Origin: Bryobacteraceae bacterium CoA2 C42
GTDB lineage: Bacteria; Acidobacteriota; Terriglobia; Bryobacterales; Bryobacteraceae
Length of the DNA: 54,288 nucleotides
Assembly (NCBI GenBank): GCA_019931245.1
Contig: JAINDL010000024.1
Location: 1 to 54,288, forward strand
Direction of reading: 5' to 3'
Part shown: piece by piece, positions 41,000 through 50,787 of the stretch
How the letters are laid out: each line of letters opens with the position of its first letter
Numbering within the stretch: the first letter of the stretch is position 1
Made by a program: the position numbers and the translations under genes
The notes under the pieces: generated by a model
What the model was told of the DNA's origin: nothing
Seen by the model: only the letters and a program-made list of their open reading frames with translations
Database searches by the model: none

Positions 41000-42430
41000 A
41001 TGAAACTGGTTGGTTTGCTCCTTCTTGTCTGGCCTCTGGCGGCGCAGGGGCCGCAGCGCGATCTGAAGTTGGAACCGCCGCGGAAGCTGGCGCTCGTCAT
41101 CGGCAACGGCAACTACCCGAAGTGGCCCCTGCGCAATCCGGCTAACGATGCGCAGGCGGTGGCGGGGGCGCTCACCGAGATCGGCTTTGCCACGACGACG
41201 GCGGTGGACGTCACCCTGCCCAACCTGGACCGGGCCGTTTCGGGGCTGGTGAGCCGGGTGCGCCCCGGGGACGTGGTCGCCTTCTACTACGCCGGCCACG
41301 GCTTTCAGCTTGAAGGCGAGAACTACCTGGTGCCGGTGGACTTTGACGCCAAGGACGAGACCGACGCCAAGTACGCGGCCTACGCGGCCTCGCGGGTGCA
41401 GGAACGGGTGGAGAAGGCGGGGGCGCGGGTGACGCTGGTGGTACTCGACGCCTGCCGGAACAATCCGTTTGCCGCGAAGCGTGCGGCCGGGGGCGGACTG
41501 GCGGCGATGGGTTCGGGCAAGGGCACGCTGATAGCGTTTGCCACGGCGCCGGGTCAGACGGCCGACGATAATCCGAATGGCAATAACGGCCTGTTTACCA
41601 CGCATCTGATTACCGCGCTGCGAGAGCCCGGCCTCACGCTCGACCAGGTGTTCAACCGGGTCCGGGAGCGGGTGCATAATGCCTCGGGCGGCCGGCAGGT
41701 GCCGTGGACGGTGTCGAGTGTGATTGGCGATGTCTACCTGCGGCCGGGTGCGGGTGGTGCGCCGGGCGCGCCGCCAGGCGCGTCCGTCGAAGGGCCGGCC
41801 ATCGTGCCGCCGCCCGTGCAGAACCCGCTGGCGCGTATTGTGACCAACTCCGTGGCGCCCGCCGAACGCCCGAGGGTTCCGGACATGGGCGCCGGCAACG
41901 CGGCCTATCAGCGGGGCGACACCGAAGAGGCGGCCCGGGTGGCGCAGGAGATTCTACGGGGAGACGCCACCAACCGCGACGCGCTGCTGTTGCTCACCTA
42001 CGTGCACTTCCGCGAGCAGCGTTGGGATCTGTTTGCCTCCACCGCCGTGCAGGCGCTGCGGGCCGGGGCGACGCTGCCCTTCCAAGTCGGCCACCACCAC
42101 ACCCTGACCGGTGCGCACGCCGCCAACCTGACGGTCTCCCGCGACCGGATCCAGTACCAGATCACGGGCGGCAACTGCACGGGCAAAAGCTTCTCGCTGC
42201 CGCTGGCCAACCTGGTGGCGGCGCAGGCCACCAGCAACACCCAGGGCGTTCCGTTTCTCAGCCTGAAAATTAATGACGAGAAGGGCAAGACGCAGAACTT
42301 CAATTTCGTCGACCCGGCCACCGAGGTGCGAGAAAATCCAAACGGTCTGCCGCTGCTGGTCAGCCCGCCGCGGGCGGCGCAACTCGTGCAGGCCGTCGCG
42401 GTAATTTTGCAGCAGACGAGACAGCCCTAG
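41000..42430 (+). CDS. Secreted caspase-like (orthocaspase, peptidase C14) protein
   Basis: 476 residues with a short Sec signal (MKLVGLLLLVWPLAAQ). The caspase p20-like domain covers about 28-250: RKLALVIGNGNYPKWPLRNPANDA, the catalytic His100 in FYYAGHGFQ and Cys152 in VVLDACRNNPF, then GKGTLIAFATAPGQTA and GLFTTHLITAL. The C-terminal half (about 300-476) has a helical, TPR-like stretch (NAAYQRGDTEEAARVAQEIL) and a beta part. Prokaryotic relatives cleave after basic residues; function here is unknown. Its last bases carry the candidate his promoter. Confidence 0.88.
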   Translation: MKLVGLLLLVWPLAAQGPQRDLKLEPPRKLALVIGNGNYPKWPLRNPANDAQAVAGALTEIGFATTTAVDVTLPNLDRAVSGLVSRVRPGDVVAFYYAGHGFQLEGENYLVPVDFDAKDETDAKYAAYAASRVQERVEKAGARVTLVVLDACRNNPFAAKRAAGGGLAAMGSGKGTLIAFATAPGQTADDNPNGNNGLFTTHLITALREPGLTLDQVFNRVRERVHNASGGRQVPWTVSSVIGDVYLRPGAGGAPGAPPGASVEGPAIVPPPVQNPLARIVTNSVAPAERPRVPDMGAGNAAYQRGDTEEAARVAQEILRGDATNRDALLLLTYVHFREQRWDLFASTAVQALRAGATLPFQVGHHHTLTGAHAANLTVSRDRIQYQITGGNCTGKSFSLPLANLVAAQATSNTQGVPFLSLKINDEKGKTQNFNFVDPATEVRENPNGLPLLVSPPRAAQLVQAVAVILQQTRQP

Positions 42431-42446
42431 CGAAGTTTGCTATCCT
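42418..42446 (+). promoter_or_regulatory. Candidate his operon promoter
   Basis: GAGACA at 42418-42423 and TATCCT at 42441-42446, 17-base spacing, each four of six consensus positions. The predicted transcription start at about 42453 would place the leader-peptide ATG (42455) at or next to the 5' end of the RNA, so the leader peptide may be leaderless. It overlaps the end of the caspase-like gene. Confidence 0.4.
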
Positions 42447-42454
42447 ATTTGTTC

Positions 42455-42523
42455 ATGCGGTTGACGCTCCATCGCCTGCACCCCCACCATCGCCATCCGG
42501 CGACCGGGCAGGCTGGATTCTAG
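42455..42523 (+). CDS. hisL: His operon leader peptide
   Basis: A 22-codon frame, ATG 42455 to TAG 42521-42523. Residues 6-14 read HRLHPHHRH: five His codons within nine positions (CAT 42470, CAC 42479, CAC 42485, CAT 42488, CAT 42494). It lies upstream of hisI, between the candidate promoter and an intrinsic terminator. This is the arrangement of a transcription-attenuation leader, where scarce charged tRNA-His stalls the ribosome on these codons. No Shine-Dalgarno is obvious; leaderless initiation is possible. Too short for ordinary gene callers. Confidence 0.8.
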   Translation: MRLTLHRLHPHHRHPATGQAGF

Positions 42524-42573
42524 CTTCGCGATTGTCTCCTCGCAAGCTCCGATGACTTCCTCACCAGCCCGCC
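42474..42573 (+). promoter_or_regulatory. His attenuator: alternative 1:2 and 2:3 pairings
   Basis: Segment 1 (42474-42479, GCCTGC) lies within the His codons and pairs perfectly with segment 2 (42508-42513, GCAGGC); a small TCGCC/GGCGA hairpin (42490-42494 with 42499-42503) fits inside. Segment 2 extended (42507-42516) pairs with segment 3 (42564-42573) in nine of ten positions. Segment 3 includes most of the 5' arm of the terminator. A ribosome stalled on His codons would cover segment 1, favour 2:3 and so prevent the terminator. Confidence 0.75.
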
Positions 42574-42597
42574 GCGAAAACGGCGGGTTTTTTCTTT
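42568..42597 (+). terminator. Intrinsic terminator of the his attenuator
   Basis: Stem CCCGCCG (42568-42574) with CGGCGGG (42581-42587), seven GC pairs, loop CGAAAA, followed by TTTTTTCTTT (42588-42597). The hisI ATG follows at once at 42598, so the only purine-rich candidate ribosome site is the 3' arm of the stem; the hairpin could also hinder hisI translation. Confidence 0.9.
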
Positions 42598-42972
42598 ATG
42601 GATCTAGACTTCAAAAAATCGGACGGCCTGGTAACCGCCGTCATCCAACACTACGAAACCAAGCGGATTCTCATGGTCGGCTACATGAACGAGGAGTCGT
42701 TCCGGCTGACCGTCGAGCGGGGCTACGCGATCTTTTTCTCCCGCAGCCGGCAGAAACTGTGGCTCAAGGGCGAATCCTCCGGCCATAAGCTGCTGGTCAA
42801 GTCGATTCAGACCGACTGCGATAGCGACGCCGTGCTCGTGCAGGTGGACCCGGTCGGCCCCGGCGTCTGCCACGAGGGCTATGAAAGCTGCTTCTTCCGG
42901 ACGCTAACCGACGGTGAGTGGCAGGTCTCGGAAGCGCCAGCCTACGATCCGAAGGCGGTATATGACAAATAA
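42598..42972 (+). CDS. hisI: Phosphoribosyl-AMP cyclohydrolase
   Basis: 124 residues; opens the purine ring of phosphoribosyl-AMP (third step of histidine synthesis). Landmarks: [10 protein letters not shown] at about 26-35, [33 protein letters not shown] with metal-binding Asp and Cys, and [11 protein letters not shown]. The HisE pyrophosphatase domain found fused in many bacteria is absent, and no separate hisE is in the window. First structural gene, directly after the attenuator terminator. Overlaps hisG by 11 bases. Confidence 0.95.
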
Positions 42973-43840
42973 GAAGTTAAAGCTCGGTATTCCGAAGGGC
43001 AGTCTCGAAAACGCGACGATCGACCTGTTCCGCCGCGCCGGATTTAACATCTCGGTGTCGAGCCGTAGTTACTTCCCGTCGATTGATGATCCGGAGATTG
43101 AGTGCATGCTCATCCGGGCGCAGGAGATGGCCCGGTATGTCGAAGACGGCATTCTGGACGCGGGTTTGACGGGTCTGGACTGGGTGAAGGAGTCCGAGGC
43201 CGAAGTGGAGACGGTGGCGGATCTTGTCTACTCGAAGGCCAGCTTCGGCAAGGTGCGCTGGGTGCTGGCGGTGCCCGAATCGTCGCCCGTGCAGAGCGTG
43301 AAGGACCTGGAAGGCAAGATCATTGCCACCGAACTGGTGCAGTTCACGAAGAACTATCTGAAGGCCAACGGGGTGACGGCGAAAGTCGAGTTCTCCTGGG
43401 GGGCGACCGAGGTGAAGCCGCCGGTGCTGGCCGATGCGATTGTCGAGGTGACCGAGACCGGCTCCTCGCTACGGGCCAATAAGCTGCGGATCGTCGCAGA
43501 GCTGATGAGTTCGAACACGCAATTGATCGCCAATAAGACGTCCTGGACCGATGCCTGGAAGCAGCAGAAGCTGAGCGATATCCGTCTGCTGCTCGACGGC
43601 GCCATTGCCGCGCTCGGCAAGGTGGGCTTGATGCTGAACGTGCGGCGAGCCGACCTTGAAAAGGTGCTGGCCACGCTGCCGGCGCTGAAGGACCCGACCG
43701 TTTCGCAGTTGAGCGATTCCGAGTGGGTAGCGGTGAATACTATCCTGGACGAGATCACCGTGCGGAACCTGATTCCGCGGCTCAAGGCCGCCGGGGCGCA
43801 GGGCATTGTCGAGTATCCGCTCAATAAGATTGTGATGTAA
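42962..43840 (+). CDS. hisG: ATP phosphoribosyltransferase, long form
   Basis: 292 residues; first and feedback-controlled step. [15 protein letters not shown] at the N-terminus, [12 protein letters not shown], the PRPP-binding [17 protein letters not shown] at about 162-178, and a C-terminal ACT-like regulatory domain (about 215-292). This is the long, self-sufficient form, so no HisZ is needed. The ATG at 42962 (MTNKKLKLG) gives the family N-terminus. Confidence 0.95.
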
Positions 43841-43852
43841 GGCAGGGGAAGT

Positions 43853-45097
43853 ATGATCAAGATAGTCGACGCCGGTCAGGTCACAAAGATTCTGTCGCGG
43901 AAGGCGGCCCGGCTGGGCGAGGCCGAGGCGGTGGTGAAGCCCATGCTTGAGGCCGTCAAGAAGCGGGGCGATGCGGCGGTGCTCGAATACGCCCGGCAGT
44001 TTGACGGGCTCGAACGGAAGTCGGTGCGGGTGCCCGAGGGCGAGTTGGCCGCCGCCGCCAAAGGGCTCTCCCCTGAGTTCAAAGCCGCGGTGAAGACCGC
44101 GGCGGCCAACATCCGCGCTTATGCCAAGCTGCAGCTGCCCACGGCGAAGTCGGTCACCGTTTCGCCGGGCCTGAAGCTGGGGCAGATCGTCCGTCCGCTC
44201 GATACCGTGGCAGCCTACATCCCGGCCGGCCGCTACCCGCTGCCGTCGACGCTGCTAATGACCGTGATTCCGGCGCAGGTGGCCGGGGTCGAGAACATCT
44301 GCGTCACCTCGCCCCGCGTGGTTGCAGAGATCTACGGCACGGCATCTCTCCTGAAGGTGCCGAACGTTTTTCAGATTGGCGGCGCGCAGGCCATCGCCGC
44401 GTTCGCCTACGGGACCAAGACGGTGCCGCGGGCGGACCGCATTGTCGGACCGGGGAACATCTATGTCGCGGCGGCGAAGAAGCTGCTGGCGGGCGAGGTG
44501 GGCATCGACTTCATCGCCGGACCCACGGAGATTCTCATGATCGCCGAGGACGGCAACCCGGCCTGGATCGCGGCGGACATGCTGGCGCAGGCCGAACACG
44601 ATACCGACGCTTCGGCCGTGCTGCTGACGACCTCAAAGCAACTGGCGCTGGCCGTACAGAGCGAGATCGACAAGCAACTAAGCAAGCTGCCGACGGCCAA
44701 GACGGCGCGGGTCGCCATTGAGAAGAACTCGGCCATTATTCTGATGGACTCGGTCGACCAGGCTATTGAAGTAGCCAATCGCTTCGCCCCGGAACATCTC
44801 TCGATCCCATCGGCGGCGTGGCTCAAAAAGATTCGCCACGCCGGCAGCGTCTTCATCGGGCCGCATAGCCCGGAGGCGGCGGGCGACTACGCGAGCGGCC
44901 CGAACCACGTACTGCCCACGAGCGGCGCCGCCCGGCTGCGCGGGGGCCTTTCGGCGGCCGATTACGTCAAGGTGATCTCGACGCAGGAGTTGAGCGCCGC
45001 GGCGCTGGCAAAACTGACGCCCGCCGTTACGACGCTCGCCCGCGCCGAGGGCCTCGAAGCCCACGCCCGGTCGGTGGAGGCGCGCCGTGCCGAATAG
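43853..45097 (+). CDS. hisD: Histidinol dehydrogenase
   Basis: 414 residues; oxidises histidinol to histidine in two NAD-dependent steps. VAAYIPAGRYPLPSTLLM, the family signature region DRIVGPGNIYVAAAKK to DFIAGPTEILMIAE, AQAEHDTDASAVLLT with the zinc-binding His, and the C-terminal SGPNHVLPTSGAARLRGGLS. GGGGAAG lies a few bases upstream of the ATG. Overlaps hisC by 11 bases. Confidence 0.96.
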   Translation: MIKIVDAGQVTKILSRKAARLGEAEAVVKPMLEAVKKRGDAAVLEYARQFDGLERKSVRVPEGELAAAAKGLSPEFKAAVKTAAANIRAYAKLQLPTAKSVTVSPGLKLGQIVRPLDTVAAYIPAGRYPLPSTLLMTVIPAQVAGVENICVTSPRVVAEIYGTASLLKVPNVFQIGGAQAIAAFAYGTKTVPRADRIVGPGNIYVAAAKKLLAGEVGIDFIAGPTEILMIAEDGNPAWIAADMLAQAEHDTDASAVLLTTSKQLALAVQSEIDKQLSKLPTAKTARVAIEKNSAIILMDSVDQAIEVANRFAPEHLSIPSAAWLKKIRHAGSVFIGPHSPEAAGDYASGPNHVLPTSGAARLRGGLSAADYVKVISTQELSAAALAKLTPAVTTLARAEGLEAHARSVEARRAE

Positions 45098-46157
45098 CCC
45101 CAAGCTCCGGCCCCGCCCCGCCGTCGAACGGATGGCGCCCTACCATCCACCCACCGGCGGCCGCGGCGAAAAACTCCGACTGGACTTTAACGAAAACACG
45201 GTCGGCTGTTCGCCTAAAGTAACGCAGTTTCTCGTCGAACACCTGGTTGAGAACGACCTGGCGGTCTACCCGGAATACAACGACGCGCGGCGCGAACTGG
45301 CCGCCTACTTCAAAGTCGCCGAGAATGAGTTCGCCCTGACCAACGGGACGGACGAGGCGATTCAGATCCTCATCAACACTTACGTCGATGACGAGGATGA
45401 GGTACTGATTCTGAAGCCGGCCTACGCCATGTACCGGTTCTACGCCGAGGTAGCCGGGGCGCAGGTGCGCGAGATCGCCTACCGCGCCGGTACGCTCAGC
45501 TTTCCGCTGCAGGAGTTGCTCGGGGCGATTCAACCCACCACGAAGGCCATTCTGATCTCGAACCCGAACAACCCTACGGGCACGGGCGTTGATCTCGACG
45601 GCATCGTCCGGATTCTGAAGCGCGCTCCGCACGCGGCGGTACTGATCGACGAGGCCTACTATGAGTTCTCGGGCGTGACGGCGCTCGGGATGCTGAAAGA
45701 GTTTCCGAATCTGTTCGTCTCGCGTACCTTTTCCAAGGTTTACGGCATGGCGGCGCTGCGGATCGGCTGCCTGTTCACGCAGGCGGCCAACGTCGACTGG
45801 CTCCGCAAGGCGCAGAGCCCGTACTCGGTGAACTCGCTGGCCGTGCTCGCCGCGCGGGCGGCGATTCGGGATCCGCAGTTTATTGAACGCTACGTGGGCG
45901 AGGTGCTCGCGGCGCGGGAATTACTGTATGTGGGTCTCGAGAAGCTGAACATTCCCTACATCAAGAGCCAGGGTAACTTTGTGCTGACCCAGATGGGAGA
46001 CCGGGCCATTGGCATCCGCGATGGTCTGCGCGAGCGCGGCGTGCTGGTGCGGGACCGCAGTTACGAGATTGCCGGCTGCGTCCGCATCACGGTGGGCACG
46101 CGGCAGCAGATGCGCATCTTACTCAAGGAGCTGGAAGAGCTGTGGCGCAAGAAATGA
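45087..46157 (+). CDS. hisC: Histidinol-phosphate aminotransferase
   Basis: 356 residues, fold type I PLP enzyme. RLDFNENTVGCSP near 28, NGTDEAIQILI, ISNPNNPTGTGVD at about 150-162, DEAYYEFSG at about 180, and the PLP lysine in SRTFSKVYGMAALRIGC. Converts imidazole-acetol phosphate to histidinol phosphate. The start at 45087 lies within the end of hisD. The stop overlaps the HAD gene by ATGA. Confidence 0.95.
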   Translation: MPNSPKLRPRPAVERMAPYHPPTGGRGEKLRLDFNENTVGCSPKVTQFLVEHLVENDLAVYPEYNDARRELAAYFKVAENEFALTNGTDEAIQILINTYVDDEDEVLILKPAYAMYRFYAEVAGAQVREIAYRAGTLSFPLQELLGAIQPTTKAILISNPNNPTGTGVDLDGIVRILKRAPHAAVLIDEAYYEFSGVTALGMLKEFPNLFVSRTFSKVYGMAALRIGCLFTQAANVDWLRKAQSPYSVNSLAVLAARAAIRDPQFIERYVGEVLAARELLYVGLEKLNIPYIKSQGNFVLTQMGDRAIGIRDGLRERGVLVRDRSYEIAGCVRITVGTRQQMRILLKELEELWRKK

Positions 46158-46807
46158 TCATCTTCGATATGGACGGGGTGCTGGTTGACGTCACCGAGTC
46201 CTATCGCGAAACGATTGTCCGCACGGTGCAGCATTTCACGGGGCAGACCATCGCCCGGAGCCGGATTCAGGAGTATAAAAACGCCGGCGGCTGGAATAAC
46301 GACTGGCAGTTATCGCAGAAGATCGCGCGGGACTTAGGAGTCGAAGTCGACTATCCCGTGGTGGTGGACTACTTCCAGAAGATCTTCTTTGGCGAGGGAG
46401 ACGGGGGGCTGATGCAGCGGGAGCAGTGGATTGCGCGGCCCGGGGTGCTTGAAAGCCTGTCCGAACGATATGCCTTTTCCATCTTCACCGGCCGAGAACG
46501 GGCCGAGGCGCAGATGACACTTGACCGTTTCGCCGCGGGCCTGAAGTTTGCACCCGTCGTCGGCGCCGATGATGTCCAGTACGGCAAGCCGGATCCGGAG
46601 GGGATGCTGCGCATCATGTCCGAGTTTCCGGGCGAACGCTTCTATTACATTGGCGACACGGTGGACGATGCGCGCAGCGCCAAGTTGGCCGGGGTGCCGT
46701 TTATCGGGATCGGCCACGGGGATACGGGCGCGCTGCTGCTGGCCGAAGGGGCCCAGGCATTGATCCCGAGCATTAACGACCTGGCAGGAGCACTCGAAAG
46801 CTTATGA
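46154..46807 (+). CDS. HAD-family phosphatase in the his operon, candidate histidinol-phosphatase
   Basis: 217 residues. HAD motif [10 protein letters not shown] (Asp5, Asp7), a helical cap (about 20-95), motif II Thr in FTGRERAE, motif III Lys in YGKPDPEG and motif [12 protein letters not shown]. The ATG at 46154 overlaps the hisC stop by ATGA and its own stop overlaps the hisB start by ATGA, so it is embedded in the operon. hisB here has only the dehydratase domain, and no HisN or PHP-type phosphatase is seen, so this gene is the natural candidate for dephosphorylating histidinol phosphate. That role is inferred from position. Confidence 0.85.
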
Positions 46808-47406
46808 GAACCGCGACCGTCGAACGGATCACGAAAGAGACGCAGATCCGCGGCAAACTGAAGATCGAAGGCAAGGGTCGGTATCAGATCTCGACCGGTA
46901 TCCGCTTCTTCGACCATATGCTCGAGCTTTTTGCCAAGCACGGCGGGTTCGACCTCGAACTGACGGCTACGGGCGATCTCGACGTGGACCAGCACCATAC
47001 GGTTGAAGACGTCGGCATCGCGCTCGGGCAACTGTTTGCGCAGGCGCTCGGCGACCGTAAGGGGATCAACCGGGCCGGTTACTTCGTCATGCCGATGGAT
47101 GAGACGCTGTCGGTGGTGGCGGTGGATCTGGGCGGGCGGCCGGCGCTGGTTTACACGGACTTAGTCAAGGTCCGGCTGGTGGGCGACTTACAGACCGAGT
47201 TAGTGCACGATTTCTTCGATGGTTTCGCCGTACACGCCGGGGCGAACGTTCACTGTAAGGTACTGTACGGGCGCAGTAACCATCACAAGCTCGAAAGCAT
47301 TTTCAAGTGTTTTGCGCGGGCGATGAAGTTCGCCACCTCGAAGGACGCTCGCCTGAAGGATCAGCTGCCCTCGACCAAGGGGCTGCTTGAGGGCACCAAG
47401 GCATGA
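46804..47406 (+). CDS. hisB: Imidazoleglycerol-phosphate dehydratase
   Basis: 200 residues, the dehydratase domain alone. Manganese-binding motifs [31 protein letters not shown] at about 61-74, [14 protein letters not shown], and [15 protein letters not shown] near 160. Joined by ATGA to both neighbours. Confidence 0.96.
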
Positions 47407-48002
47407 GCAAGGTGGTAGTTTTCGATTACGGCGCCGGCAACCTGCGCAGCGTGCTGAATACGCTGGGGGCGATCGGGGCGCAGTACGAACTGGTGGACGA
47501 CGCCGAAGGGCTGCTGGCGGCCGAAAAGATCATTCTGCCCGGCGTGGGGCACTTCGGCCAGATGGTGCGATCGCTCGATGCGATGCGGGTTCGCAAGCCG
47601 CTGCTGATGCGGATTGCGCAGGGCGTGCCGTTTCTGGGGATCTGCCTGGGGCTGCAGGCGATGTTCGAGGCGAGCGAAGAGGCTCCGGACCTGGAAGGCC
47701 TGGGGCTGTTTGCGGGCAAGGTGAAGCGTTTTCCCGACGATGCGAGGGTGCCGCACATGGGCTGGAATGAGTTAGAAGTCCGGGCCGGCTCGCGCCTGCT
47801 GCGGAATTTGCCGCCGCGGCCCTATCTGTACTTCGCGCACAGTTACTACGTGCCCGCGCACGAATACGCCGCGGCGACCTGTATCTACTCCGAGCCGTTT
47901 ACGGCCGTGCTCGAGCACGAGAATGTTTACGGCGTTCAGTTCCACCCGGAGAAGTCCGGCGCGTTGGGGTTACAAATTGTTAAAAACTTCGTGGACCTTT
48001 GA
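47403..48002 (+). CDS. hisH: Imidazole glycerol phosphate synthase, glutaminase subunit
   Basis: 199 residues, class I amidotransferase. [11 protein letters not shown] at 7-17, the nucleophile Cys81 in FLGICLGLQ, and the His-Glu pair in VQFHPEKSG near the C-terminus. Supplies ammonia to HisF, which follows 4 bases downstream. Confidence 0.96.
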
Positions 48003-48006
48003 CACT

Positions 48007-48774
48007 ATGCTGGCAAAACGCATTATTCCCTGCCTTGACGTTACCGCCGGCCGGGTGGTCAAGGGCATTAACTTCGTGAACCTGAAAGACGCGGGCGACC
48101 CGGTGGAGCTCTCCGAACGCTATAACGCGCAGGGGGCCGATGAGCTGGTGTTTCTCGACATTACGGCCTCATCCGACGAACGGAACACGATGGTGGACGT
48201 GGTGGCGCGGACCGCGCAGAAGGTGTTTATTCCGCTGACGGTAGGCGGCGGGATCCGCTCGGTGGTTGATGCGCGCAAGATACTGATGGCCGGGGCGGAT
48301 AAGGTGAGCGTGAACACGGCGGCGGTGCGTGATCCGCAGCTGATTACGCTGCTGTCGAACGAGTTTGGGGCGCAGGCCGTGGTGCTGGCCATCGACGCGC
48401 GGCGCCGCGCGGGCGGCGGCGGCTGGAACGTATTCACCAAGGGCGGACGGGTGGACGAAGGCATGGACGCCGTGGCGTGGGCGGCGCGGGGCATGGAGTT
48501 GGGCGCCGGGGAGATTCTGCTGACGTCGATGGATACCGACGGGGTGCAGGACGGCTTCGATTGCGAGCTGACGGCGGCCGTCTCGCGGGCGACGCGCATT
48601 CCGGTGATCGCGAGCGGCGGCGCCGGCAAGCCCGAACATTTTCTGAAAGTTTTGACCGAGGGCGAGGCCGACGCGGCACTGGCGGCCAGTATCTTCCACT
48701 TCGGCACTTACACCGTCGATGACCTCAAAGAGTTTCTCGACAAGCGCGGCATTGTCGTGCGGAGAACCCAATGA
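48007..48774 (+). CDS. hisF: Imidazole glycerol phosphate synthase, cyclase subunit
   Basis: 255 residues, TIM barrel. [18 protein letters not shown] with the catalytic Asp, [28 protein letters not shown], the second catalytic Asp in [13 protein letters not shown], and [12 protein letters not shown]. The ATG at 48007 is used; the frame upstream lies over hisH. Stop overlaps hisA by ATGA. Confidence 0.97.
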
Positions 48775-49472
48775 TTCTACCCTGTATTGATTTGATGGAC
48801 GGCAAGGTCGTTCAGCTGGTGCAAGGAAAAGAGAAGGCGCTCGAGGGCGAGGCGCCGGAGGTGATGCTTGAGAAGTTCGCGGGTTTCCCCGAGATTCAGG
48901 TGATCGACCTCGACGCCGCCTTCGGCCGCGGGGAGAACGACGCGATTGTCGAGGCGTTGTGCGCCCGGGCGCGATGCCGGGTGGGCGGCGGGGTGCGGAC
49001 GCCGGAGCGGGCCGAAAAGCTGGTGGAGCAGGGTGCTCACCGCGTGATTGTCGGCACGTCGGCCTTCCGGGCAGACGGACCCAACCATGCGCTGCTGTCG
49101 GAGATGGTGGCGGCCGTGGGGCAGGACAAGCTACTGATCGCCATGGACTCGAAGGGCGGCCGGATTACCGTAAAGGGCTGGACTGAATCGCTGAACTTTA
49201 CGGCTGAGGAGTTAGTGAGTCAGCTCGAGCCTTACTGCAGCGGTTTTCTTTGCACTTACGTGGATAAAGAAGGTATGATGCAGGGCACCGACCTTGACTG
49301 GTTCCGCCGGCTGCGGGCCGCCATGAGCCCGGAGCACGAGTTGACGGCGGCGGGCGGGGTGACCACGCTTGACGACGTGCGGGCGCTGCAGGCGATGAAC
49401 GTTCATGCAGCGCTCGGCATGGCGATCTACACGGGCCGTCTTTCGCTCGACGACCTCCGGAAAATGCTCTAG
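48771..49472 (+). CDS. hisA: ProFAR isomerase
   Basis: 233 residues, TIM barrel related to His[19 protein letters not shown] with the catalytic Asp, [37 protein letters not shown], and [15 protein letters not shown]. Catalyses the Amadori rearrangement of ProFAR. Eleven bases before thrC. Confidence 0.95.
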
Positions 49473-49482
49473 GAACTTCTTC

Positions 49483-50787
49483 ATGTCCTCGCGTCTTGTC
49501 TGTTTCAACCCCTCCTGCCGGGCCGAATATGCTTCGACCGAAGTGCTCTACGCCTGTACCCGCTGCGACGGGCTGCTCGAAGCAAAGATCGACTACGACC
49601 GCACCGCCGCTGCCGGCTGGAAGCAGTTGTGGCGGCAGCGCCGGCTGTCGAACGCGCCGCTCGATGTTTCGGGCGTGTGGCGCTACCGGGAGATGCTCGA
49701 CCTGTTTGACGGTTTTGAGCACGTGGTAACGCTGCGCGAGGGCAACACGCCGCTGCTCGCCGGCGCCAAGGCGGCGGCATACGCCGGGCTCGACAAGGTT
49801 GTCTTTAAGCATCAGGGTTTCAACCCGACGGGCAGCTTCAAAGACAACGGCATGACTTGCGGGGCGACGCAGGCCAAGCGGCTGGGGATGCGGCGGGTGG
49901 CTTGCGTGTCGACGGGCAATACGTCGGCGTCGATGGCCGCTTACGCGGCGACGTCGGGGTTGGATCCGATCATCTTCATCCCCAACGGCAACATCGCCTT
50001 TGGGAAACTGTCGCAGGCGCTCGACTACGGGGCGCGGACGCTACAGGTGGAGGCGAACTTTGACCAGATTCTGGCGCTGGTGCGGGAGCTGGCCGACCGG
50101 CTGGGCATTTATCTGCTGAATTCGGTGAACCCGTTCCGGATTGAGGGCCAGAAGTCGATTGTGATTGAGATGCTCGATCAGCGCGATTGGCAGGTGCCGG
50201 ATTGGGTGGTGCTGCCGGGCGGGAACTTGGGCAACGTCAGCGCGTTTGGCAAGGGGCTGCGGGAGTTACTCGACTTAGGGCTGATTGATAAGCTGCCGCG
50301 GCTGGCGGTGGTGCAGGCGGCCGGGTCGGCGCCCTTTTACGATTATGTCCGGCAGACGGATAAGGGCCACTTTCCGACGGTGAAGAAACCGGAGACGCTG
50401 GCGACGGCGATTAAGATTGGCGATCCGGTGAGTTATCCGAAGGCGCTGCTCGAGATAGAGACTTCGGGCGGGGTGGTGGAGCGGGCGAACGAACAGGAGA
50501 TTGCCGACGCCAAGGCGGTGATAGGCGCCTGCGGCATTGGCTGCGAACCGGCTTCGGCCGCGACGCTCGCCGGCATCAGGAAACTGGTGGCCGCCGGGTT
50601 GATGCGGGCGGATGCCGATGTGGTGGCGGTGTTGACGGGTAATGTGTTGAAGGACCCGGATTACATCTACCACTATCACACCGGTGTCTTGAAGGGTCCG
50701 CACGGCGAGCCGCTCACGTCCACGTTTGGCAACAAACCCACGGTGGTTCCGAACGACGCGGACGCGATTGCGGCGCTGCTCGGATAG
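49483..50787 (+). CDS. thrC: Threonine synthase
   Basis: 434 residues, fold type II PLP enzyme. N-terminal four-Cys segment (Cys7, Cys12, Cys25, Cys28) resembling a zinc ribbon, LREGNTPLL at about 84-92, the PLP lysine Lys120 in FNPTGSFKDNGMT, STGNTSASMAAYAA, and VVLPGGNLGNVSAFGKG. Makes threonine from O-phosphohomoserine. The ATG at 49483 has AGGA about eight bases upstream. Its place as last gene after hisA suggests cotranscription with the his operon. The 136 bases after it hold no gene, and I see no clear T-tracted terminator. Confidence 0.92.
   Translation: MSSRLVCFNPSCRAEYASTEVLYACTRCDGLLEAKIDYDRTAAAGWKQLWRQRRLSNAPLDVSGVWRYREMLDLFDGFEHVVTLREGNTPLLAGAKAAAYAGLDKVVFKHQGFNPTGSFKDNGMTCGATQAKRLGMRRVACVSTGNTSASMAAYAATSGLDPIIFIPNGNIAFGKLSQALDYGARTLQVEANFDQILALVRELADRLGIYLLNSVNPFRIEGQKSIVIEMLDQRDWQVPDWVVLPGGNLGNVSAFGKGLRELLDLGLIDKLPRLAVVQAAGSAPFYDYVRQTDKGHFPTVKKPETLATAIKIGDPVSYPKALLEIETSGGVVERANEQEIADAKAVIGACGIGCEPASAATLAGIRKLVAAGLMRADADVVAVLTGNVLKDPDYIYHYHTGVLKGPHGEPLTSTFGNKPTVVPNDADAIAALLG

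Follow-up and report, generated by a model that had tools for sequence, protein, structure and literature searches.

A short open reading frame (ORF) rich in histidine codons lies immediately before the histidine operon of an acidobacterium, and the question it raises is whether this bacterium controls the operon by the textbook device of a translated leader and competing RNA structures. In the His leader of Gammaproteobacteria, a short His-rich ORF, competing pairings and a terminator before the first his gene couple transcription to the charging of His-tRNA. The window, our name for the whole stretch of DNA analyzed, comprises 54,288 nucleotides of a contig of Bryobacteraceae bacterium CoA2 C42, whose genome is available as 6.07 Mb in 237 contigs. 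An earlier, sequence-only reading of the window had described a complete His attenuator upstream of hisI. Judging from the sequence of the leader and its relatives, we are highly confident that it is a classical ribosome-mediated attenuator of his-operon transcription, and that it very probably lets the bacterium switch the operon on only at histidine shortage.

The operon and its leader

The operon begins with hisI, the gene for phosphoribosyl-AMP cyclohydrolase (plus strand, 42598..42972), which matches NF000768 over its cut-off and PF01502. It continues on the same strand with hisG, hisD, hisC, a HAD hydrolase gene, hisB, hisH, hisF and hisA across 42914..49472; these coordinates are the outer limits of the ORFs as listed, and hisA was assigned by its best match (TIGR00007, 179.6 bits, under the cut-off of 228.95). 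The HAD hydrolase between hisC and hisB (46142-46804; best match TIGR01548, under its cut-off) is a candidate for the histidinol-phosphate phosphatase step. At the far end, a threonine-synthase-like (thrC-like) ORF at 49405-50787 (TIGR00260, over the cut-off) begins before the end of hisA and may, for that reason, share the histidine control of the operon. Upstream of the leader, also on the plus strand, lies a caspase-like gene (Peptidase_C14, PF00656; 41000-42430), the last bases of which overlap the -35 region of the his promoter.

The leader ORF occupies 42455..42523 on the plus strand and encodes the peptide MRLTLHRLHPHHRHPATGQAGF, followed by a stop codon. As the sequence-only reading had it, the ORF has 22 codons and its translation shows five His residues in nine, at codons 6, 9, 11, 12 and 14; no Shine-Dalgarno-like core was seen upstream. 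The same reading had named a candidate promoter, and one can indeed be read on the plus strand at 42418..42446: a -35-like GAGACA (42418-42423), a 17-nt spacer and an extended -10 element, TGCTATCCT (42438-42446), whose hexamer reads TATCCT with the extended TG. Its likeness to the consensus is limited, however, with 8/12 bases matched, and this explains its absence from a promoter scan with a threshold of at least 9/12, which listed no promoter on the plus strand. The transcription start predicted from the promoter would fall at about 42453. On the minus strand, inside the attenuator (42545-42517), an antisense promoter-like site matches 9/12 consensus bases, probably by chance.

Competing structures in the window

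The three helices claimed from the sequence alone—a 6-bp pairing under the His codons, an antiterminator at 9 of 10 bp and a 7-bp terminator with a T-tract—are all found as described on the plus strand. Segment 1 (42474..42479) lies among the His codons and pairs at 6/6 positions with 42508-42513, a part of segment 2. The latter (42507..42516) is near the end of the leader ORF and can pair either with segment 1 or, as the antiterminator and at 9/10 bp, with segment 3 (42564..42573), which in turn forms the 5' side of the terminator when paired with segment 4. The intrinsic terminator (3:4; 42566..42593, -16.5 kcal/mol) has a stem of 7 bp (42568-42574 / 42581-42587), extended to 9 bp by flanking A-U and G-U pairs, and six T from 42588. 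Between segments 2 and 3, the fold places an inner hairpin at 42522..42548 (AGCTT/AAGCT plus GCGA/TCGC); in one relative (L005), one pair of this stem appears altered on both sides, GCGA/TCGC having become GAGA/TCTC (by eye).

Folding the leader in search of alternative minima, as had also been proposed from the sequence, gives three different structures. With the RNA masked so as to be free from 42504 and the polymerase at 42580, the 2:3 antiterminator forms (-28.1); with the RNA free from 42538, the terminator forms (-17.0); and the full leader without a ribosome folds into 1:2 plus 3:4 (-54.4). At equilibrium, a ribosome held at the His codons nevertheless leaves the terminator 4.4 kcal/mol more stable than the antiterminator (-34.3 versus -29.9), and antitermination must therefore be kinetic. 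Without a ribosome and with the polymerase at 42580, 2:3 is slightly more stable than 1:2 (-41.4 versus -40.6). Compared with dinucleotide shuffles, the window leader fold has a z of -2.91, with 3/200 shuffles equal or better, and against shuffled versions of segment 2 the pairings reach p = 0.03 (1:2) and p = 0.085 (2:3). On their own, the pairings of the window are modest, and they gain their weight from the relatives.

From the sequence elements and their conservation we infer the start site, the stalling, the termination and the response to histidine. Transcription would start a few bases at most from the leader AUG, such that the ribosome could load on a nearly leaderless RNA. With charged His-tRNA scarce, the ribosome would stall on the His codons and cover segment 1, leaving segment 2 free to pair with segment 3 and block the terminator; hisI and the following genes would then be transcribed, provided that the antiterminator forms first and persists while the polymerase passes the T-tract. 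With His-tRNA plentiful, the ribosome would proceed to the stop codon, where its footprint is expected to cover segment 2; the 3:4 stem would form, and transcription would end before hisI. In the absence of translation, 1:2 and the terminator would form.

Conservation of the peptide and promoter

Including the window, hisI was found in 59/61 near genomes searched. We counted the peptide as present when the 230 nt upstream of hisI contained a short ORF in which ten residues included at least four His; by this measure, 40/59 genomes have it, while three genomes have three His and 16 have fewer. The sequence-only reading had suggested this comparison upstream of hisI and held that a lack of conservation in relatives would speak against the attenuator; what we find is that the peptide and the terminator are kept and that the pairings, as a set, are above shuffles. 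Over all loci scored, a His-rich ORF is present in 55/75, versus 21/7,500 dinucleotide shuffles of the upstream regions, and in the same ORF test no other residue rises above 9/75 loci. The 75 loci combine the 59 near genomes with 16 from named records (15 with a leader and one without); the latter were chosen after their leaders had been seen and are therefore excluded from the frequency. Seen by eye, both CAC and CAT encode the leader His and the rest of the peptide largely changes. At every rank from genus through family, order and class to phylum, many genomes retain the peptide, its position and the terminator; many of the leaders come from close relatives, however, and the counts are thus not independent.

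The comparisons of leaders that follow are based on a set of 55, from which L070 and L076 (start codon unsettled) and L053 (a near copy of L054) had been removed. The extended -10 motif TGNTATACT, with zero or one mismatch, occurs in 39/55 leaders versus 0/648 control windows of the same loci, and the gap from the -10 box to the leader AUG is 8-10 nt in 49/55. As a -10 box usually lies 6-7 nt from the start site, the untranslated part of the leader would be only about 2-4 nt long. A Shine-Dalgarno-like core precedes the leader AUG in 5/55 leaders (it is absent in 50/55) and hisI in 17/55. The proximity of the -10 box to the AUG and the general lack of such a core argue that ribosomes probably translate the leader from an RNA that is nearly leaderless and whose start is placed here by the -10 box.

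Pairings and terminators across leaders

Segments 1 and 2 shift register between subclades, and the pairings were for this reason scored per sequence. The 2:3 pairing is better than shuffles at p <= 0.05 in 26/55 leaders and the 1:2 pairing in 23/55, about three being expected in each case. Native partners also pair more strongly on average than partners swapped between genomes, with means of -18.8 versus -16.4 kcal/mol for 2:3 and -26.7 versus -22.1 kcal/mol for 1:2. With other segment limits, 20 and 22 of 52 leaders reach p <= 0.05 for 2:3 and 1:2, respectively, and among more distant leaders the numbers are 18 and 18 of 48. Relative to the leader stop, the helix of segment 2 has its centre between -20 and +15 nt in 50/52 and 38/48 leaders, a placement that is partly by construction as segment 2 was sought only past the last His codon. 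Within the genus, segments 2 and 3 appear by eye to change together between two subclades. In nine genomes, GGGC(A/G)GGCTG of segment 2 faces CCAGCCCGCC of segment 3; in five of the six other genus genomes, GGCTGGGCCA faces GGCCCGCC. The sixth of this second group (L017) carries CCAGCCCGCC, which is also able to pair with its GGCTGG (both by eye).

Some terminator was found in 55/55 leaders, a count that is weak alone because the same loose search gives a stem with a T-rich tail in 266/330 shuffles. More telling are the scores: the native terminator beats its shuffles in 318/330 trials, the remaining 12/330 shuffles reaching the native score. Among more distant leaders, a terminator was detected in 48/52. 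In an alignment of 48 leaders, from which seven near copies were removed beforehand, four base pairs of the terminator stem are invariant in 48/48 and a T run follows the stem; the consensus structure of this alignment contains the terminator only.

The closeness of the terminator to the hisI start had led the sequence-only reading to suggest control of translation as well, and one may go further and suppose that the hairpin mainly hides the start of hisI, with the ribosome on the leader governing its opening and little termination taking place. The suggestion fits the subclade of the window: in 9/9 of its genomes, 8 nt separate the end of the stem from the hisI ATG, and none of the nine has a Shine-Dalgarno-like core before hisI. 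Elsewhere, however, as many as 82 nt stand between the stem and the hisI match, and as the distance ranges over 7-82 nt in the 55 leaders, translational control is not general to the device; the T run after the stem in the 48-leader alignment also fits termination better. We consider it very unlikely that translational masking is the main role of the hairpin.

In a different extension of the attenuator, the peptide or the short RNA left by attenuation would have an additional role in trans, as is reported for peTrpL and rnTrpL in Sinorhizobium meliloti (PMC7298713). Judging from the spacing of its -10 box and AUG, the small RNA released from the his leader would likewise be nearly leaderless. 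The peptide, on the other hand, varies strongly outside its His codons between genera (by eye), which makes a trans function of the peptide unlikely, and we regard trans action as highly improbable. Finally, since the caspase-like gene on the same strand stops at 42430, 136 nt short of the terminator, one could suppose that the hairpin terminates that gene and that the His-rich ORF is a chance occurrence. This notion is strongly disfavoured: in many genomes the His-rich peptide occurs along with both a -10 box and a terminator, and the combination persists also before hisG or hisD.

Spread in the phylum

A covariance model, R1, built from the 48 leaders, has matches at E <= 0.001 in 77/396 genomes drawn from the phylum, representing 46/211 genera. 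Sixty of the 77 matches were examined, and 55 of them have, at the expected place, an ORF that reaches four or more His in ten residues. The gene after these 55 peptide-bearing leaders is hisI in 48, hisG in five and hisD in one, with the contig ending in the remaining case (G299); hisI is downstream in 48/60 of the examined matches. That five leaders precede hisG and one hisD indicates that the device goes with the operon rather than with any single gene. Four examined matches lack the peptide (G310, G413, G322 and G206), all with E of 4.8e-4 or weaker, and G143 is doubtful, its His codons being in a frame that runs through the terminator. In the near genomes, strong full-length matches were obtained in 44/61, many of which were used to build the model; one of the 44, G047, scored below three His in the ORF count. 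Among hisI loci chosen from genomes without an R1 match, 14/20 carry a His-rich leader, including 8/8 from one family (f8), and the tally of 77/396 likely underestimates the spread.

The promoter arrangement recurs at this distance. TANNNT is found 6-10 nt before the AUG in 48/55 more distant leaders versus 16/495 controls; this set, which includes G143 (excluded from the 55/60 bearing the peptide), was partly picked by a model containing the -10 region, and leaders missed by the model were for that reason scored too, 12/14 of them having TANNNT 6-10 nt before the start. The strict -10 motif is weak in the distant leaders, with at most two mismatches in 11/54.

Among hisI loci with labels other than Acidobacteriota, 62 were searched and none matched R1 at E <= 1; L070 and L076 are outside this count because their leaders had already been seen. 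These two, labelled Ferrithrix (48.0 bits) and Armatimonadetes (20.1 bits), match R1 and have a similar His leader before hisI; they are possibly mislabelled bins or a sign of wider spread. On balance, we lean towards seeing in these leaders an old, vertically inherited leaderless his attenuator of Acidobacteriota, in which promoter and AUG would be fused, the ribosome would load at the emerging 5' end and the device would stay at the head of the operon, be it hisI, hisG or hisD.

Loci without the peptide

The 16 near genomes with fewer than three His include all 11 of genus g21, from the same order, where the peptide was seen in 0/11 genomes, and one of the window's own genus. The terminator search in g21 gave nothing in six genomes and poor stems in five, with scores of 9-10 against the 21 of the stems kept in G002 and G019. 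In these two genomes the -10 box and the stem are retained and the peptide is absent. At the G002 locus (L016, same genus as the window), a promoter and a leader start lie 260 nt before hisI with no His peptide, and the leader start shares the frame of hisI across a terminator-stem remnant without a T run; this resembles either a natural loss of attenuation or a flaw in the assembly. At the G019 locus (L021), a TATACT box some 75 nt upstream of hisI is closely followed by a terminator with a T-tract, with no peptide. Both genomes are draft assemblies, and the loss of the peptide may for this reason be an artefact. Natural peptide-less variants would offer ready comparisons.

Relation to known leaders

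The window leader shares with the His leader RF00514, hisL of Escherichia coli, a His-rich ORF, competing pairings, a terminator and, as proposed here, coupling to the charging of His-tRNA. Unlike in the RF00514 system, the first gene after the Acidobacteriota leaders is mostly hisI, the AUG lies 8-10 nt past the -10 box and a Shine-Dalgarno-like core is lacking. A scan of the window gave no RF00514 match at the gathering score, and one of 42380-42720 gave none even at E <= 10; the leader is therefore not filed in that RNA family though it works like one: it belongs to the functional class of his-operon attenuators, not to the Rfam family RF00514. The search at E <= 10 over 42380-42720 returned four other matches, the best being RF02278 (E = 0.01), far under the gathering score, and no T-box was matched in Rfam upstream of the operon.

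His-leader attenuators have been predicted by comparison in three lineages of Firmicutes without HisR or T-box control (PMC9413887); as described there, they share with ours the leader peptide with successive His codons, the terminator and the antiterminator but belong to a different phylum. The arrangement of a leaderless leader peptide is likewise already known, having been reported for trpL of S. meliloti, whose leader peptide transcript starts at its AUG (PMC7298713), and for leuL, trpL and ilvL of Streptomyces lividans, whose transcripts start at the leader AUG (PMC8079986). Those leaders are for Trp, Leu or branched-chain amino acids and have 5' ends reported from transcript data, whereas ours are placed from the -10 box. 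We found no leaderless leader peptide for His in the accessible parts of the literature on leaderless leaders, and no description of a his attenuator in Acidobacteriota in those of the open-licence literature. Naville and Gautheret (2010; PMC2965389) stated that hardly any of the attenuators predicted in Acidobacteria and other such phyla had a function assigned to it.

What is new is the host phylum, the breadth within it and the probably nearly leaderless start, the mechanism itself being textbook. The his leader proposes a function for Acidobacteriota attenuators, together with a searchable model, and would add one phylum to the Proteobacteria and few Firmicutes for which the literature covered describes His-leader attenuation. 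The nearly leaderless start, if real, makes the leader a simple natural reporter for leaderless translation and transcription–translation coupling in Acidobacteriota.

We also looked for a Trp attenuator before trpE at 30 loci of near genomes, and none was convincing by eye; four Trp in ten residues upstream of trpE were seen only at L156 of the 30 loci, far from the gene. At five loci of the same genus (L161, L165 and L168-L170), a TGGTATCCT box ends about 13-23 nt before the candidate trpE starts, with no Trp leader, and at L157 and L158 a TGCTACCCT box lies 6 nt before the trpE start, likewise without one (all by eye). Such very short 5' ends may be a common feature here.
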